From NCBI GenBank assembly GCA_013327885.1, contig JABUMY010000005.1, positions 124,001 to 188,000 on the forward strand: a stretch of 64,000 nucleotides of DNA. Reading direction: 5' to 3'. The DNA is from Flavisolibacter longurius (lineage in GTDB: Bacteria > Bacteroidota > Bacteroidia > Chitinophagales > Chitinophagaceae). The notes beneath the pieces were generated by a model. That model made no database searches. It had not been told where the DNA came from and saw nothing but the letters and a program-made list of their open reading frames with translations. The translations under genes were made by a program, and so were the position numbers. Position 1 is the first letter of the stretch, and each line of letters starts with the position of its first letter. Shown here piece by piece: positions 13,943 through 35,349 of this stretch.

Positions 13943-15616
13943 GTGGTTGACAATTACGCCATCGCCGACCAGTTCTCGCTTCTTTCCAAATTAATGGACA
14001 TCCATGGCGAAAATGCATTCAAAGCAAAAAGCTATGCGAACACCGCATTTGCTATAGAAAAAGCGCCAACAAACCTGGCGGCTCTCAGCCAAGAACAAAT
14101 AGCGGCTACGCGGGGCATTGGCGACAGCACGGCCAAAAAAATAAAAGAGATTTTGGATACAGGAAACCTGCAGGCCTTACAGGATATCCTGCAAAAAACA
14201 CCGGCCGGTGTGCTGGAGATGATGAACATCAAAGGACTTGGTCCGAAAAAGATCAACACCATCTGGAAGGAAATGAAGATCGATACGATCGAGGCTCTTG
14301 AACAAGCCTGCATCGAAAACCGAATTGCTGCAAAAAAAGGATTTGGCGCCAAAACAGAGCAAAAGATCCTGGAGTCGATTCGTTTTGCCAGCGAAAACAA
14401 AGGGCAGTACCTCTACAAGCAGGTTGAGGATTTTGCGCTGGCCCTGCAAAGCAAACTGGAAACAAAATTTCCGGAGGCGCAGACAGCCATCACAGGACAG
14501 TTCCGCCGGCAACTGGAAGTGATCAGTCAACTGGAATGGGTAACAACTGCCAGCCAGCAGGAGGTTATGAATTACCTGCAAAACGACCAGGTAGAAATTG
14601 TAACCGAAGGCACCAACACCCTCTTGCTTCGGGTAGAAGATCGGCTCACTATCCAGGTCCATTTTGCGACACCGGAAACCTTTGCTGAAACCTTGTTTGC
14701 CACCAGCGCCAGCGAAGAATTCCTGGCAGCGCTGCAAAACAAAACGTCGTGGAAGAACACACCATCGGAAGAAGCTGTTTTTCAAAACGCAGGCCTGCCC
14801 TATCTTCCGGCTTACCTACGGGAAAGCAGTCAAATACTGGAAAGGGCTACCAATGAAAGTCTTGCTGCTATTGTAGAAACAGGCTCTATCAAAGGACTGA
14901 TCCATTCACACAGCAACTGGAGTGACGGCGCTTACACCATCGAGCAGATGGCAGAAGTATTGATCCGCACCGGTTTTGAATACCTGGTCATTTCCGATCA
15001 CTCCAAATCGGCTTATTATGCCAATGGGCTGAATGAAGAAAAAATAAAAGAACAGCACCGTTACATCGACACGCTGAACGAAAAGCTTGCGCCGTTCAAA
15101 ATATTTAAAAGCATCGAGTGCGATATCCTCGGCGATGGCTCCCTTGATTACGACAACGAAACGCTTTCCACGTTTGACCTTGTTATTACATCCATTCACA
15201 GCAACCTGGATATGGAAGAAGACAAAGCCATGCAACGCCTAATGGGTGCCATCACCAATCCTTACACTACCATCTTGGGTCACATGACGGGCCGGCTGCT
15301 GTTGCGTCGCAAAGGCTATCCCGTTGATCACAAGGCCATCATCGATGCCTGTGCGGCCAACAACGTGGTCATCGAGATCAATGCCTCACCAAGCCGGCTG
15401 GATATGGATTGGCGCTGGGTTTCTTATGCTGTCGAAAAGGGTTTGTTGCTTTCCATCAACCCCGATGCGCATGCACTGGAAGAATTTGCTTACATCAAAT
15501 ACGGAACGCTGGTGGCGCAAAAAGGCGGGCTGCCTGCCACACGCAACCTAAGCTCATTCTCCTTGCAGGAATTTGAAACCTTCCTGGCAGCGAACAGGAA
15601 AAAGAGAAATGTTTGA
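13943..15616 (+). CDS. PolX-family protein: HhH and degenerate polymerase domains with PHP phosphoesterase
   Basis: 557 residues from a GTG start. The N-terminal 8-kDa-like region has two helix-hairpin-helix motifs (ATRGIGDSTAKKI, about 56-68; NIKGLGPKKI, 95-104). The nucleotidyltransferase domain should carry GSxRR...GDxDxLV; here it reads GQFRRQLEVISQLEWV (185-200), so both metal-binding Asp are replaced (Q196, E198). The C-terminal PHP domain keeps its metal ligands: H321, H323, D328, H353, E392, H419, H447, D508 and H510. It is therefore probably a PHP nuclease or phosphatase with DNA-binding modules but no polymerase activity. PolX proteins act in base-excision-type repair. A terminator follows. 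Confidence 0.88.
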   Translation: MVDNYAIADQFSLLSKLMDIHGENAFKAKSYANTAFAIEKAPTNLAALSQEQIAATRGIGDSTAKKIKEILDTGNLQALQDILQKTPAGVLEMMNIKGLGPKKINTIWKEMKIDTIEALEQACIENRIAAKKGFGAKTEQKILESIRFASENKGQYLYKQVEDFALALQSKLETKFPEAQTAITGQFRRQLEVISQLEWVTTASQQEVMNYLQNDQVEIVTEGTNTLLLRVEDRLTIQVHFATPETFAETLFATSASEEFLAALQNKTSWKNTPSEEAVFQNAGLPYLPAYLRESSQILERATNESLAAIVETGSIKGLIHSHSNWSDGAYTIEQMAEVLIRTGFEYLVISDHSKSAYYANGLNEEKIKEQHRYIDTLNEKLAPFKIFKSIECDILGDGSLDYDNETLSTFDLVITSIHSNLDMEEDKAMQRLMGAITNPYTTILGHMTGRLLLRRKGYPVDHKAIIDACAANNVVIEINASPSRLDMDWRWVSYAVEKGLLLSINPDAHALEEFAYIKYGTLVAQKGGLPATRNLSSFSLQEFETFLAANRKKRNV

Positions 15617-15654
15617 CGCTAGGTTCGCAAAGAACAAACTTTTGTCAGCAACAA

Positions 15655-15690
15655 AAGAAAAAAGCTGGTCAGGGTTGACCAGCTTTTGCT
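15655..15690. terminator. Bidirectional terminator between the PolX-like and kinase genes
   Basis: Perfect 11-bp arms AAAGCTGGTCA (15661-15671) and TGACCAGCTTT (15676-15686). It is flanked by an A-run on the left and a short T-run on the right, so it can serve both converging genes. Confidence 0.8.
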
Positions 15691-15729
15691 ATAATAGTGG
15701 GATAAGTAAACGAACCATTGGCCGAACTA

Positions 15730-18700
15730 CTATACCATCGGCAGGCGCACAAAAAATGTTGTCCCCGCTCCTTCTTTTGTCTCAAACCAGATCTCGCCGC
15801 CGGCCTGCTCAACAATGCCTTTACACATAGCAAGACCAAGACCCGTACCCGATGTTTTGGTAGTAAAGTTTGGCGTAAAGATCTTTGGCTGCAGTTCTGC
15901 CGGGATGCCATCGCCGTTGTCCGATACGGCAACAAGCAGGTCATTGCCCACAACCGTCTCCGTTAGCAGCACATTGCATTGCTTCCGTTCTGAACAGGCA
16001 TCCACCGCATTGGCCAGCAGGTTGGTGAACAAGCGGTTCATCTGTGTTTTATCCACCCGCATCACCGCGTCCTGCGCAACAGGCTTCCAGTCCACTTGCA
16101 CTTTGGGATTGGTGGAATACAGGTCGAGCAGGGAACCAATCACGCTGTGCAGGTCGATCGTTTCCAGGCGCTTGGTGCCGATGTTGGCAAACTGCGAAAA
16201 GTCGGCCGCGATCTTTGACAGGTGATCGATCTGCTCGATCAGTGTGGACGCTACGTTGGAGGTGAGTTCCTGCACATTGGGCTGGTTGTTCTGAATGGCT
16301 TTTTGCAGGTACTGGATACTGAGCTTCATCGGCGTCAGCGGGTTTTTAATTTCATGCGCTACCTGCCTTGCCATTTCACGCCACGCCCCTTCCCTTTCGC
16401 TTTTAGCCAGTGCCGATGCACTCATCTCCAGTTGCTGCACCATCTTGTTGTACTGCGTCACCAGTTCGCCTATCTCATCGTTCTTGTTCCACTCAATTTC
16501 CTGGTTGGTCTTGCCCAGCGTCACTTCTTTCATTTTGTTACCAATAAGGGAGAACGACCGGGTAATGCGATTGGTAATAAAAAGCGCCAGTGCACCGGCA
16601 ATCAGGAGAATAAATGCATTCAGGTTGATGATCGTCACCAAAAAGTTGGAGATCTCTTGCTGCAATTCGTTGGCCGAAGAAAACGAAGGAACATTTAGGT
16701 AAGCATAGGTATCATTGTTGGCATTGCGAACAGCCAGGTAGAGGCTGCGGAATTCCTGGTAGGGAATGGATTCCGTTTGTACCAACTGCACATGCCCCTG
16801 GTTGCGGAGGTAGAAATAAGCCTCCGGGTTCATTTTTTTACTTAATACCCGCGGGTTGTAAAGGTCTTCTGCAGAAGTAACCTGCAAATTGCCGTCGATG
16901 TCGTAAATGTTCACGATCTGGCCATGTACATCAGAGATTTCGTCGACACCCCGTTGCAGGGAATCGTTGGCCGCTTGTATTGGAAAATTGAACCGGTTAA
17001 AATTGAGGTTCAGATCCTTTACCAGTTTTTGGTATTCGCTTAACGTAGATGTAGCTGTGCGGTTTAAGTTGGCATTGACATTTCTTTCATTTCGCTGGAA
17101 AAAATACGAGATGGTTGCAATCCCGATGATTAAAAACGAAAGAATAGAAATAAAGATGATAGTGCCGTGTATCTGGGAACGGATGTTCAGGCGGGAGAAT
17201 AAATTTACCGATGGCCACGAACGGACAACCTGTGCCGCCAGCTCGAAGAACCGCAATATGCCGATCATAAAAAGGAAAGCACAAAACAGGTAGGAAAAAA
17301 GCGTTATGCTTTCTATGAGCGATTCTTTTTCGTTTACCACCACAATGATCTTTCTGTTGGCGCCTTTGAACCAAAGCTCATTGTACTCATCCCTTTCAAC
17401 CATCGCTTCCTTTTCTTCCGGTATATCCTCCGGGGCCAGCATCACCGGGAAAGGATAGGTTCCGATGTGCGTCACCAGCTTGTTATTCCGGTAGACGGCA
17501 ATGATCGAAGGCGTGAACCTTTCTTCATATTTACCCCGCCGGAAAAGGCCTGGCGAAAGCTTACCCTTGCCACTGAAGGTGCGGGGTCTTGCCAGCAGGA
17601 ACATGGTTCCTTTTTGTTGCGTACTGTCGTAAATGTTCTTTTTTACAATGTATACAAAGTCAGAAAAAGAGATATCGTAGTACATCAGTTCATCCAGGCC
17701 GGTGGGTTTACTCTGTACCGTATAAATATTATCTAGTTCTGCAAAAGAACGGCCGTCGGGGTTGTTAATGCCCGTGCCAGACGAGTCGAAAACATAGATG
17801 TCGGTGTTATAGTTGTTGGACGAAGGCGTCATCTGCGAACGCGAAATACTGTCGCGTATCTTAAAGCTGTCCTGCTCACTGTAAAACCGGTTGAAGTTTG
17901 CACTCAAAAACCGGTTATCCAGGTACTGGAGAATAAGCGACAAAGATTTTTCCTTTGTCGGCTCCTGGAGTTCTTCGTATTTATCGGCAATGCTGCGCAA
18001 CTGGCGTTGCACCTGTTCGCGGTTGCCGCTCATAATGAGAACGGCAAGCGAAACAGAAAACAGGAATGCCCAGAAAAGTATACCGGCAATGGTCACACGA
18101 AAACGGTTGATGATGGCTTGCTCCTGGGTGAGGATCAGCGTGTAACCTACCAGCCAAATTAAGATCGGCAATTGAAACAGAACCGTGGAATGACTGGAAA
18201 GAAGCGAATGTACCGTCAACAGAACAAGCCCTGCCAGTGCCACAACAAAATACAAATGCAACAGGTTTGGAATAGCCATCAGGATACCCCGAAACAGCAT
18301 GCGTGTAAAATAGTAGTAGCTGAGCGATAAGATGGCGAGGATCAAAAAGCTGAAACCCGTGTATACGGAAAGGCTGGAAAAGTCGGTTACGTCAAAAGAT
18401 ATCTTTGAATTCATGACCAGGCTATGCACGATCTCCGCCACCTGGAACGTGCAAAAAACAAGGACAAAAACACCGGTCACGCCTGCTATCACCACTCCGG
18501 TTTCATTCAAAAAAGAAGGTAGTTTTTTAAGCCGGCCAAGGTAACTCCAGGCAAACAAAACCACCCAACAGATCATCACCGAATTGATCAACAAGTCGCC
18601 CAATGACCGGTTAAACAAATCTGCGCCATAAACGGCTGGATCGAACAAGGAAAAAAAGCGCAACGACAGCAAGCCAGGGAAATAGTAGAGTACCAAACGC

Positions 18701-31663: not shown

Positions 31664-31687
31664 AAAATATCACATCCGCTACATTGA

Positions 31688-31717
31688 AAAGGCTGTTAAA
31701 TTAACAGCCTTTTTTTA
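31688..31717 (+). terminator. Terminator after the OmpP1/FadL gene
   Basis: GGCTGTTAA and TTAACAGCC flank a single A (31691-31709), followed by seven T. Confidence 0.9.
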
Positions 31718-31852: not shown

Positions 31853-33031
31853 ATGATTAAGAACATAGAAGAAGTTTCATGCGCTTTCCTGCATGACGTC
31901 GATTTACTTTGTTTTTCTCACTTGCGTTGGGGATTTGTTTTTCAGCGCCCAAACCACCTGTTGAGCCGCTTTTCAAAACATCAACGTGTCTTTTTTATTG
32001 AAGAGCCCATCTTTCATGAAGGTGAAGACAAACTTCACATTGAAAACTACAATGAGAACCTGTATGTAGTTACACCGCACCTTCGCCACCGTGCCAATGG
32101 CGCAGAAGTTATTACGCAGCAAAAAGCGTACATCAGCAGCCTGTTGCGGCAGATGCAGGTGAAGCGTTATTTTAGCTGGTACTATACACCCATGGCACTT
32201 CCTTTCACCGACCATCTTTCACCCGAACTGGTGATCTATGATTGCATGGATGAACTGGCAGCATTTAAGTTTGCGCCACCCGAATTGACCAAGCTGGAAA
32301 AAGACCTTTTCACCAAAGCAGATGTTGTCTTTACAGGCGGTCATAGCATTTACGAAAGTAAAAAGAATGCGCACCACAATATTTATGCGTTCCCGAGTAG
32401 CATCGATAAATCGCATTTTGGTCGTGCACGGAAAATGCGCAAAGATCCAGCTGATCAAAAAGACATTGCCCGTCCACGCTTTGGCTTTTTTGGCGTGATT
32501 GACGAACGCTTTGATATTGCCATGATCGACGAAGTGGCCAAGCAAAAACCCAATTGGCAGTTTGTACTATTAGGCCCTGTTGTAAAGATCGACCCAGCCA
32601 CGCTGCCCAAGCATCCCAACATTCATTACCTGGGCGGTAAAAAATACGATGAGTTGCCGGCTTACATTGCAGGCTGGGACATTGCCATGATCCCGTTTGC
32701 CATCAATGAATCTACGCGGTTTATCAGCCCAACAAAAACACCGGAATACCTTGCAGCCGGCAAGCCTGTTATTTCCACGCCGATCCGCGATGTAGTATCG
32801 CCTTATGGCAACAATAAGCTGGTACATATTGTAAACAACAGCAAAGAATTTATTGCAGCGGCAGAACTTGAATTACGCAAGAAAAACAGGTCGGCATGGA
32901 TGCGGAAAGTAGATACTTTCCTGGAAGGCACATCCTGGGACAGAACCTGGAGCCAGATGGTTCGCAATATAGAAGCAACCATCCAACAAAACACGACCGT
33001 AAAAGCAGCCGAAGGAGGTGTGTACGTTTGA
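31853..33031 (+). CDS. GT4-like glycosyltransferase
   Basis: 392 residues of GT-B type. The N-terminal region has FSHLRWGFVFQRPNHLLSRF-like sequence and YDCMDELAAF; the C-terminal domain (about 195-370) has FFGVIDERFD, NIHYLGGKKYDELPAYIAGWDIAMIPF and the donor-binding segment SPTKTPEYLAAGKPVISTP, typical of GT4. No membrane segment. Genes of this type sit next to UDP-galactopyranose mutase in other genomes (my recollection). The GH1-RmlD fusion gene follows 69 bases downstream, so the pair probably makes or edits one cell-surface glycan. Confidence 0.85.
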   Translation: MIKNIEEVSCAFLHDVDLLCFSHLRWGFVFQRPNHLLSRFSKHQRVFFIEEPIFHEGEDKLHIENYNENLYVVTPHLRHRANGAEVITQQKAYISSLLRQMQVKRYFSWYYTPMALPFTDHLSPELVIYDCMDELAAFKFAPPELTKLEKDLFTKADVVFTGGHSIYESKKNAHHNIYAFPSSIDKSHFGRARKMRKDPADQKDIARPRFGFFGVIDERFDIAMIDEVAKQKPNWQFVLLGPVVKIDPATLPKHPNIHYLGGKKYDELPAYIAGWDIAMIPFAINESTRFISPTKTPEYLAAGKPVISTPIRDVVSPYGNNKLVHIVNNSKEFIAAAELELRKKNRSAWMRKVDTFLEGTSWDRTWSQMVRNIEATIQQNTTVKAAEGGVYV

Positions 33032-33099
33032 TTGCAAAGCGATAAAGTGGTTTGCAAGACCACTACTTAACGTTTGTATTGCAACACAGACGATAACAT

Positions 33100-35313
33100 A
33101 TGCAGGTAGAAAAGAACATCAATGATCCCGAAATATGGGGCGGAATTGAATGCACGATCAACAGGGTTCAGGACCGCTTCTTCGACCAACTGCAATACAG
33201 TGGCCATTACAACCGTACCAGCGATATTGCCCAGTTAGCACAAACAGGCATCAAAAAAATGCGTTACCCCGTTCTCTGGGAAGCGCATCAACCCGAACGG
33301 GACAGTGTCATCGACTGGACGTGGACAAGCCGGCAATTAACGCAACTAAAAGAACATAATATCGAGGTAATTGCAGGACTGGTTCACCATGGAAGCGGCC
33401 CTGCTTTTACCAATTTACTCGATGACCAGTTTCCCTACTTGTTAGCGGATTATGCCAGCAAGGTGATTGAGCAGTTTCCGCACATCAACTACTTTACACC
33501 TGTCAACGAGCCCCTGACCACGGCACGGTTCAGCGGCTTATATGGCTTTTGGTACCCTCACCGATCAGACGACGCTTCGTTCCTGAAAATGCTCATCAAC
33601 GAGCTGAAAGGCGTGGTACTATCGATGCAGGCTATACGTAAAATAAACCCGCAAGCCAAGCTGGTTCAAACAGAAGACCTGGGAAAAACATACAGTACAA
33701 AATCGCTGCAATACCAGGCTGATTTTGAGAATTACCGCCGTTGGCTAACCTATGATCTTCTTTGTGGCCGACTGACGCCAACACATCCTCTTTGGGATTA
33801 TTTACGAAAGCATGATGTACCGGAACAGGACCTCCTTTTTTTCCAGGAGAATATTTGTGTACCGGATGTATTTGGATTTAACCACTACGTGACATCGGAA
33901 CGCTACCTTGATGGCCGTTTGTATCGCTATCCCCAACATACCCATGGCGGTAATGGCCGGCAAGCCTATGCCGATGTGGAAGCCGTGCGGGTAAATTTGA
34001 AAGAAGAAACCGGCATTGGCGTTCTGCTCAAAGAAGCCTGGGACCGTTATCGCAAACCCATGGCGGTAACAGAAGTACACCTGCATTGCCACCGTGAAGA
34101 ACAGTTGCGGTGGTTTAACTATATCTGGAAAAGTTGCCAACAACTGGTTGCAGAAGGGGTGAAAATTGAAGGCGTCACGTTATGGGCCATGCTCGGTTCT
34201 TTTGGATGGAACAAACTCTTGACGGAACCGAATGGTGAATACGAACCTGGCGTGTTTGATGTGCGTAATGGAACGCCACGACCCACTGCTTTGGCTGGCT
34301 ATGTAAAAAGCCTGGCGCATCAAGGTATCGATCATCATCTTACGATAGACAAAGGCTGGTGGCAACGGCCGTCCCGTTATTTTTACAAACCCACATTATT
34401 GCCCGATGCGTTTAAACCAATGCCTGACCAAAACAAACCGCTGCTGATCATTGGGAAGCGGGGAACTCTGGGCAGGGCGTTTGCCCATATATGCGATGAC
34501 CGTTATCTACACTACGTTGCATTGGGACGCGAAACCTGCGATATAACGGACCTGGATTCCATCGAAAAAGCCATTGCAAACCATCGCCCCTGGGCCATTA
34601 TAAATACGGCCGGTTTTGTACGGGTTGATGATGCGGAAATAGAGCCGGACAAATGTTTTGCAGACAATACCATCGGGGCACAAAACCTTGCTATAGCATC
34701 AGCAAGACATGGTATTCAACTGGTCAGTTTTTCCAGCGACCTGGTATTTGATGGCGAGAAAAAGGCATCCTATTTTGAAGAGGACAAAACCAACCCGTTG
34801 AACATTTATGGCCACTCAAAAGCAAAGGCCGAGGAAGCGGTGCTGACCGCAAACCCAGGTGCCCTGGTCGTTCGAACCAGTGCTTTTTTCGGGCCTTGGG
34901 ACAGTTACAATTTTGCGCATGCCGTTCAGCAAAGCCTGCAGAACGAAGAGCTGTTTATGGTAGCCGTGGATACAATGATCTCCCCAACCTATGTTCCGGA
35001 CCTGGCGCATGCCACACTGGACCTTTTGGTAGACGGCGAAAAAGGGATCTGGCACCTGGCAAACAATGGTGAATTAAGCTGGGCCGATTTTGCCAATGAA
35101 ATTGCAGACCGCTTAAACCTGAACCGGAAATACATCAAGGCCGTACCGGCGAGTGCAATACCACTGCCCGCCAAACGACCGACATACAGCGTTCTTTCCA
35201 GCAGCAGGGGCATGCTTTTGCCAACACTTGACAATGCCCTCAAACGCTATACAAATGAAATAACGGAGAGAATGCAGCAGCAAAAAAGCATGGCAAAAAA
35301 AGAAAGAGCCTAA
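33100..35313 (+). CDS. Fusion of GH1-like glycosidase and RmlD-like NAD(P)-dependent reductase
   Basis: 737 residues in one frame. Residues about 10-415 are a GH1 (beta-glucosidase-like) TIM barrel: acid/base E137 in PVNEP and nucleophile candidate E325 in VTEVH (the usual TENG reads TEVH). Residues 445-735 are an RmlD-type short-chain reductase (dTDP-4-dehydrorhamnose reductase family): Rossmann loop GKRGTLG (452-458), FSSDLVFDG (544-552) and the catalytic pair Y570/K574 in YGHSK. No signal peptide, so it is cytosolic. It may hydrolyse or transfer a sugar and reduce a nucleotide-linked keto-sugar. It follows a GT4-like gene; a bidirectional terminator ends the operon. Confidence 0.87.
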   Translation: MQVEKNINDPEIWGGIECTINRVQDRFFDQLQYSGHYNRTSDIAQLAQTGIKKMRYPVLWEAHQPERDSVIDWTWTSRQLTQLKEHNIEVIAGLVHHGSGPAFTNLLDDQFPYLLADYASKVIEQFPHINYFTPVNEPLTTARFSGLYGFWYPHRSDDASFLKMLINELKGVVLSMQAIRKINPQAKLVQTEDLGKTYSTKSLQYQADFENYRRWLTYDLLCGRLTPTHPLWDYLRKHDVPEQDLLFFQENICVPDVFGFNHYVTSERYLDGRLYRYPQHTHGGNGRQAYADVEAVRVNLKEETGIGVLLKEAWDRYRKPMAVTEVHLHCHREEQLRWFNYIWKSCQQLVAEGVKIEGVTLWAMLGSFGWNKLLTEPNGEYEPGVFDVRNGTPRPTALAGYVKSLAHQGIDHHLTIDKGWWQRPSRYFYKPTLLPDAFKPMPDQNKPLLIIGKRGTLGRAFAHICDDRYLHYVALGRETCDITDLDSIEKAIANHRPWAIINTAGFVRVDDAEIEPDKCFADNTIGAQNLAIASARHGIQLVSFSSDLVFDGEKKASYFEEDKTNPLNIYGHSKAKAEEAVLTANPGALVVRTSAFFGPWDSYNFAHAVQQSLQNEELFMVAVDTMISPTYVPDLAHATLDLLVDGEKGIWHLANNGELSWADFANEIADRLNLNRKYIKAVPASAIPLPAKRPTYSVLSSSRGMLLPTLDNALKRYTNEITERMQQQKSMAKKERA

Positions 35314-35349
35314 CCAAAGAACCCGGAACAACTGTTCCGGGTTCTTTGT
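35314..35349. terminator. Bidirectional terminator between the fusion gene and ftsY
   Basis: Perfect 14-bp arms AAAGAACCCGGAAC (35316-35329) and GTTCCGGGTTCTTT (35334-35347) with a four-base loop. It serves both converging genes. Confidence 0.8.

Follow-up and report, generated by a model that had tools for sequence, protein, structure and literature searches.

A widespread GH1–RmlD fusion protein encoded in Flavisolibacter longurius and its possible place in a galactofuranose glycoside module

UDP-galactopyranose mutase (UGM) of the Deinococcus radiodurans type is known from pairs with a galactofuranosyltransferase, and the tabulated part of PMC3624792 gives ligand structures and measured kinetics for the D. 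radiodurans enzyme (row 66, 55, 1.18). In the Fcf1/Fcf2 genes for dTDP-D-fucofuranose, mutase, reductase and glycosyltransferase are likewise adjacent, and the section of PMC10888714 that deals with them mentions no GH1 protein. In the present work, we analyzed a stretch of 64,000 nucleotides from Flavisolibacter longurius (Bacteroidota; Chitinophagaceae), hereafter the window, which comprises positions 124,001 to 188,000 of contig JABUMY010000005.1 and in which a gene for a GT4-type glycosyltransferase is followed by a gene for a fusion of a GH1-type barrel with an RmlD-type extended short-chain dehydrogenase/reductase (SDR) domain. The fusion has its barrel fold and two catalytic Glu residues in common with GH1 β-glycosidases (5wka and Thermotoga maritima 1od0), and its SDR fold, cofactor motif and Tyr/Lys residues in common with RmlD. 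Genome comparisons show that the genes predicted to encode GT4, UGM and the GH1–RmlD fusion are neighbors or partly fused across phyla. As in the described UGM–galactofuranosyltransferase pairs, a mutase nearest to the D. radiodurans type lies beside a transferase, but the transferase is here a GT4 protein that lacks sequence relatives in the PDB, and the GH1–SDR fusion is attached. Our literature search found no paper on the GT4–UGM–GH1–RmlD trio.

In the window, both open reading frames (ORFs) are intact and lie on the + strand, with the fusion downstream. The GT4 ORF (31853–33031, 392 aa) matches Pfam PF13692 with 35.5 bits (cut-off 27) and NCBIfam TuaH with 88.6 bits, far under the cut-off of 550; against the PDB sequences it has no relative, the single match (E 0.72) being due to chance. 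The fusion gene (33100–35313, 737 aa) encodes a (β/α)8 barrel at residues 11–425 (33130–34374), matched by PF00232 over residues 35–372 (34.0 bits, cut-off 22.6), and an SDR domain at residues 447–720 (34438–35259), matched by PF04321 over residues 448–721 (231 bits). A preliminary description, made from the letters of this stretch, had proposed this gene order and a set of key residues, and both were confirmed: E137 (codon 33508–33510) lies in an NEP motif and E325 (34072–34074) in TEVH, while the SDR domain has GxxGxxG at residues 452–458 (34453–34473), Y570 (34807–34809) and K574 (34819–34821). The AlphaFold model of the fusion has a mean pLDDT of 92.2 and a pTM of 0.90, and Foldseek ranks RmlD structures first (1vl0, E 1.8e-27), followed by the GH1 structures 5wka (8e-19) and T. 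maritima 1od0 (2e-17). A degenerate barrel is ruled out by this confident model, the GH1 matches and the conserved catalytic Glu residues. When the N-termini of the fusions were compared by eye, no obvious signal peptide was seen.

The fusion is a widespread architecture, not a product of chance. A genome scan confirmed at least 590 stretches encoding it, and the scan titles include Bacteroidota, Cyanobacteria and Proteobacteria, together with metagenome bins labeled Pyrinomonadaceae, Chloroflexi and Planctomycetota, some contigs of which may be misbinned. The two domains are therefore not separate genes everywhere. Among 58 relatives, fusions at least 53% identical occur in 15 of the 17 other genomes of the genus and in one genome from a different genus (56%); four of the genus genomes carry a second, more divergent copy. 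Nine of the 296 genomes of the phylum sample match at 1e-20, and five of these, the window genome included, reach at least 52% identity; G303, which belongs to the five, has only a 460-aa frame that lacks the SDR part. Within the family that includes Anabaena azotica, matches to the GH1 part occur in 32 of 118 genomes, and in two of these they cover no more than partial stretches. Plasmids also carry the fusion: 25 records match, 19 of them across 80% or more of the query, and Deinococcus is represented. On an Azospirillum thermophilum plasmid, two convergent fusion genes lie about 3 kb apart (L156:9016–11298 and 14406–16712), one of which adjoins GT4, and on a Sphingomonas daechungensis plasmid the fusion, which lies beside glf, is annotated as two separate genes (L158:9097–11138). 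The occurrence in the genus, across phyla and on plasmids rules out a curiosity of a single genome. The usual database label of the protein is 'family 1 glycosylhydrolase', and a search aimed at the fusion, judged by its listings, found no paper about it. Thus, the fusion is real, conserved and uncharacterized in the literature searched.

Residue conservation was assessed in an alignment of 47 proteins, comprising the window fusion and 46 of the 78 available fusion ORFs, hand-picked for diversity. This alignment was used instead of a loose motif count, which flagged 14 of 100 fusion ORFs by narrow patterns and included some genomes twice. All 47 proteins match both PF00232 (at E <= 0.001) and PF04321. 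The acid/base Glu in NEP and the nucleophile Glu on the TE strand, which mark the GH1 family, are present throughout, and N136, E137, Y263, T324, E325, W362, W370, H96 and H97 are invariant. In GH1 enzymes, residues of the ENG and FEW motifs contact the sugar. The fusion barrel, at about 15–21% identity to the GH1 β-glycosidases, lacks the ENG and FEW contact motifs of the usual hexopyranosidases: TENG reads TEVH, TEAH or TECH, the Glu of FEW is Gly in 24 proteins and Asp in 23, and HW is HH. The changes at TENG and at the FEW Glu, the latter in all 47 proteins, affect the −1 subsite and support an altered specificity, as the preliminary description had suspected from the TEVH motif. The GH1 part is the somewhat better conserved one (mean pairwise identity 0.567 versus 0.516 for the RmlD part; higher in 88% of pairs). 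Distance correlations among the GT4, UGM, GH1 and RmlD parts range from 0.53 to 0.92 in 49 loci, but these values lack a species-tree control and were not used as evidence of co-evolution.

The SDR domain retains the catalytic and cofactor-binding residues of its class. In the same alignment, K574 and S545 are invariant, Y570 is present in 45 proteins (Phe in L070 and L090), and the glycines of GxxGxxG are kept in 47 (G452), 44 (G455) and 41 (G458). By contrast with RmlD, the Tyr of STDYVF and the Trp of RT(S/A)W, which the solved RmlDs share with the separate RmlD encoded by the window genome, are replaced in all 47 proteins. With the rmlD equivalog model TIGR01214, the window protein scores 234.5 bits, just above the cut-off of 224.05, whereas nine of nine other fusions tested score 181.9–211.7; the separate RmlD of the window genome, encoded beside rmlC, reaches 314.1. 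From the RmlD fold, the replaced Tyr and Trp and the scores below the cut-off, we infer that the SDR domain would work as an NAD(P)-dependent sugar ketoreductase with a substrate other than that of RmlD. An ordinary RmlD role of the domain was not supported, and a rhamnose label for the fusion is doubtful. One of the divergent second fusions of the genus (L040:6665–8797) has lost the RmlD motifs and retains NEP and TECH.

The partner that is invisible in the window alone is UGM. Its gene is missing at the window locus, where GT4 and the fusion are separated by a gap of 68 bp (33032–33099), the site of the UGM gene in relatives (L026, L028, L030 and L035). In tblastn searches of 80 loci, the best-scoring of the at least 590, GT4 was found at 67, UGM at 54, both at 52 and neither at 11; 51 of the UGMs are at least 64% identical and three only 38–39%. 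Clustering of genes within 7 kb, performed on 78 of these loci, gave a similar picture, with GT4 at 64, UGM at 52 and both at 50; the other two loci, L089 and L130, yielded no fusion ORF with the simple ORF finder and were counted by tblastn. The GT4 genes of L033 and L068 are masked in the ORF finder by a longer antisense ORF, and tblastn recovers that of L068. GT4, UGM and the fusion often occupy overlapping or fused ORFs, and GT4 and UGM form one polypeptide at 17 of the 78 loci. Among the ten plasmid records that were opened, nine have GT4 and seven UGM, while the Deinococcus deserti plasmid has neither near the fusion. In Ensifer adhaerens and Mesorhizobium 113-3-3, the order GT4–UGM–GH1 is kept in a reductase-less form, the GH1 protein scoring 23.6 with PF00232 in Ensifer, above the cut-off of 22.6, and 19.4, below it, in Mesorhizobium. 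The UGM of these loci is closest in the PDB to that of D. radiodurans (3hdq, 640 and 650 bits; next matches 299 and 293).

Eight of the 78 loci also have a solo GH1 gene within 7 kb. Solo GH1-like genes of 400–445 aa, about 27–30% identical to the fusion barrel, were noted at L042, L044, L045, L046 and L047; a classical SDR gene adjoins such a gene in five of the seven loci of this kind that were opened, a second, unfused pairing of barrel and oxidoreductase.

The window genome (5.75 Mb) has a single UGM that we could find, G000:C7:39662-40771 (332 bits, cut-off 303.75), which lies on another contig near glycan genes and is 40% identical to the UGM of the gene clusters. Likewise, when five genomes with UGM-less loci were checked genome-wide, four had a UGM elsewhere (85, 76, 70 and 49% identical). 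When the window genome and 17 others of the genus are taken together, 16 of the 18 have both fusion and UGM and two have neither, one of the two being just 78% complete; a UGM without the fusion occurs in one of 20 additional relatives. In one genus member (G004), a GT4–UGM pair stands apart from any fusion (L175:6352–8653), and this genome yielded no fusion other than a divergent copy on a different contig.

The same association was observed in cyanobacteria. Nine of 244 cyanobacterial genomes have the fusion, in one case as a fragment at a contig end. A UGM at least 70% identical occurs in 14 genomes, which include all nine with the fusion, where it lies within about 650 bp (Fisher p 2.8e-13, uncorrected for kinship). 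A GH2 protein resembling galactofuranosidases was found, at 73% identity or more, in 11 genomes, which include eight of the nine with the fusion and all of which have this type of UGM (Fisher p 1.0e-16 for GH2 and UGM, again uncorrected for kinship); the three that lack the fusion show the gene order GT4–UGM–GH2. In these three, weak barrel-like neighbors occur; two such ORFs (366 and 372 aa) align at 22–25% and retain NE and E, although neither has a Pfam GH1 match at E 0.01. For the GH2 protein of L070, the best PDB match is the β-D-galactofuranosidase 9j6n (119 bits), and furanosidases are placed in GH2_18 and GH2_19 in the relevant part of PMC12243196. A GH2, GH43 or GH5-type gene lies within 7 kb at 20 of the 78 loci, and Leloir genes (galK, galT, galE, galM) also at 20. 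In cyanobacteria, UGM or the fusion is closely followed by a gene for a small STAS-domain protein (about 116–125 aa) at L176, L177, L178 and L183.

Based on these comparisons, we tentatively regard the gene pair as part of a predicted cytosolic module for galactofuranose (Galf) glycosides, a reading that we consider the leading one but not yet probable. The dedicated pathway for an unusual sugar proposed in the preliminary description is likely, and the presence of UGM at 54 of 80 loci, together with its nearness to the D. radiodurans enzyme, suggests that the sugar is most probably galactofuranose. UGM would make UDP-Galf, and GT4, the window copy of which we infer to be the galactofuranosyltransferase of the module, would pass Galf to an acceptor, which would yield a Galf glycoside or oligosaccharide in soluble form. 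The GH1 barrel may then use its two conserved Glu residues to trim this glycoside, turn it over or carry out a transfer, and the SDR domain may draw on NAD(P)H for the reduction of a keto product or end group. The latter step would be an add-on, since it is absent or lost in some lineages. The GH2, GH43 and GH5-type neighbors, with GalM, GalK, GalT and GalE, could feed Galf back into central metabolism. In the window lineage, UDP-Galf would be supplied by the distant UGM encoded elsewhere in the genome. As for the earlier suggestion that the sugar is processed on a carrier, no evidence was found either way.

Several observations weigh against this Galf module. Some UGM is present in 69 of the 244 cyanobacteria and in 60 of the 235 without the fusion, and UGM alone is therefore no predictor of the fusion. 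The nearby UGM is lacking at 26 of the 80 loci, and both GT4 and UGM at 11, several of these loci being on cut contigs; the genome-wide check of Massilia horti (L114) found no UGM. In the four genus genomes with a second, divergent fusion, that copy is not near GT4 or UGM. The Leloir and GH2 genes accompany only a minority of loci, and one cyanobacterial GH2 protein (L128) matches 7xyr, named a β-glucuronidase (316 bits), and 7sf2 (262) above the galactofuranosidase 9j6n (226), which makes its activity less certain. Finally, since the 80 loci are the best-scoring ones, the sample is biased to close relatives.

A more specific possibility, which we hold to be on the unlikely side, is reductive capping, in which the barrel would form a Galf–enzyme intermediate and convert it by elimination, rather than hydrolysis, to a 1,4-anhydro-2-keto sugar and the SDR domain would reduce this to 1,4-anhydrogalactitol. 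Elimination followed by reduction has a precedent in the GH31 α-1,4-glucan lyase and anhydrofructose reductase, to which the fusion would be alike if its GH1 barrel eliminates and its SDR domain reduces, although the families and the sugar differ. Since 1,4-anhydrogalactitol corresponds to Galf reduced at carbon 1, a glycosidase-type barrel linked to a reductase would be well suited to producing it. Such a process requires that a hydrolase-type barrel and a ketoreductase be combined, as they are in the fusion, and the pTM of the model suggests a fixed arrangement of the two domains. Wieneke et al. 2007, listed as reference 48 in PMC3826126, name in their title β-(1,6)-Galf oligomers on 1,4-anhydrogalactitol from Nostoc commune, in which the compound forms the end group. 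Nostoc species carry the module (L109, L111, L115 and L116), the genomes examined being those of species other than N. commune, and the matches in the Anabaena azotica family agree with such a distribution. The fusion might then be a bifunctional lyase–reductase making the cap for β-1,6-Galf oligosaccharides built by GT4 and UGM, and the module might be the locus of the orphan N. commune oligomers, common to many soil and dry-habitat bacteria; to this extension, we likewise attach a low probability. The SDR part is, however, absent in the Ensifer and Mesorhizobium copies and in the 460-aa frame of G303, and a lyase signature is not readable from sequence.

That the barrel serves catabolism, as a β-galactofuranosidase or galactosidase for the cell's own or scavenged glycans, with the SDR domain being a sugar dehydrogenase unrelated to biosynthesis, appears unlikely. 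The neighboring galK, galM, galT, GH2, GH43 and GH5-type genes would suit this role, as would the galactofuranosidase-like GH2 gene that follows UGM in the three fusion-less cyanobacteria. However, the genes most closely associated with the fusion encode a mutase that makes a sugar donor and a glycosyltransferase, and their ORFs frequently overlap or are fused; in addition, the fusion lacks a visible signal peptide.

A pathway for a 6-deoxy-hexofuranose such as dTDP-D-fucofuranose, with the RmlD part as an Fcf1-like 4-ketoreductase, the mutase as an Fcf2-like enzyme and GT4 adding the sugar, is improbable, even though PMC10888714, in its D-fucofuranose section, describes the same trio of glycosyltransferase, mutase annotated as UGM and reductase. 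The mutase of the module resembles D. radiodurans UGM much more closely than it does the other solved mutases, a comparison that covers the UGMs in the PDB and includes no Fcf2, and the annotated neighbor clusters, a part of all neighbors, show galactose genes rather than rmlA or rmlB. An ordinary dTDP-L-rhamnose reductase carrying a GH1 domain by chance is very improbable and was rejected on the replaced Tyr and Trp and the homologous fusions below the cut-off, despite the window protein's own score and its Tyr and Lys residues; the separate rmlC–rmlD pair of the window genome also speaks against it.

Two terminator-like hairpins flank the gene pair on the + strand, one of 13 pairs upstream (31686–31714) and one of 15 pairs directly 3' of the fusion stop codon (35315–35348). 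Both come from a consensus scan only, in which the region has 11 such sites versus 5.4 in shuffles.

Many carriers of the fusion appear to come from soil crusts or dry ground; by strain name, L073, L086, L095, L100, L103 and several cyanobacterial loci have a desert, soil-crust or dry-habitat look. A role in drying tolerance is thus testable. If the Galf module is real, a large group of proteins labeled 'family 1 glycosylhydrolase' would belong to a pathway common to distant phyla, and the D. radiodurans-type UGM, which has been studied as an enzyme, would gain a genetic context. The module would also provide candidate genes for orphan Galf oligosaccharides ending in reduced Galf, and the fusion would become a test case for a GH1 barrel working in biosynthesis with a fused reductase.

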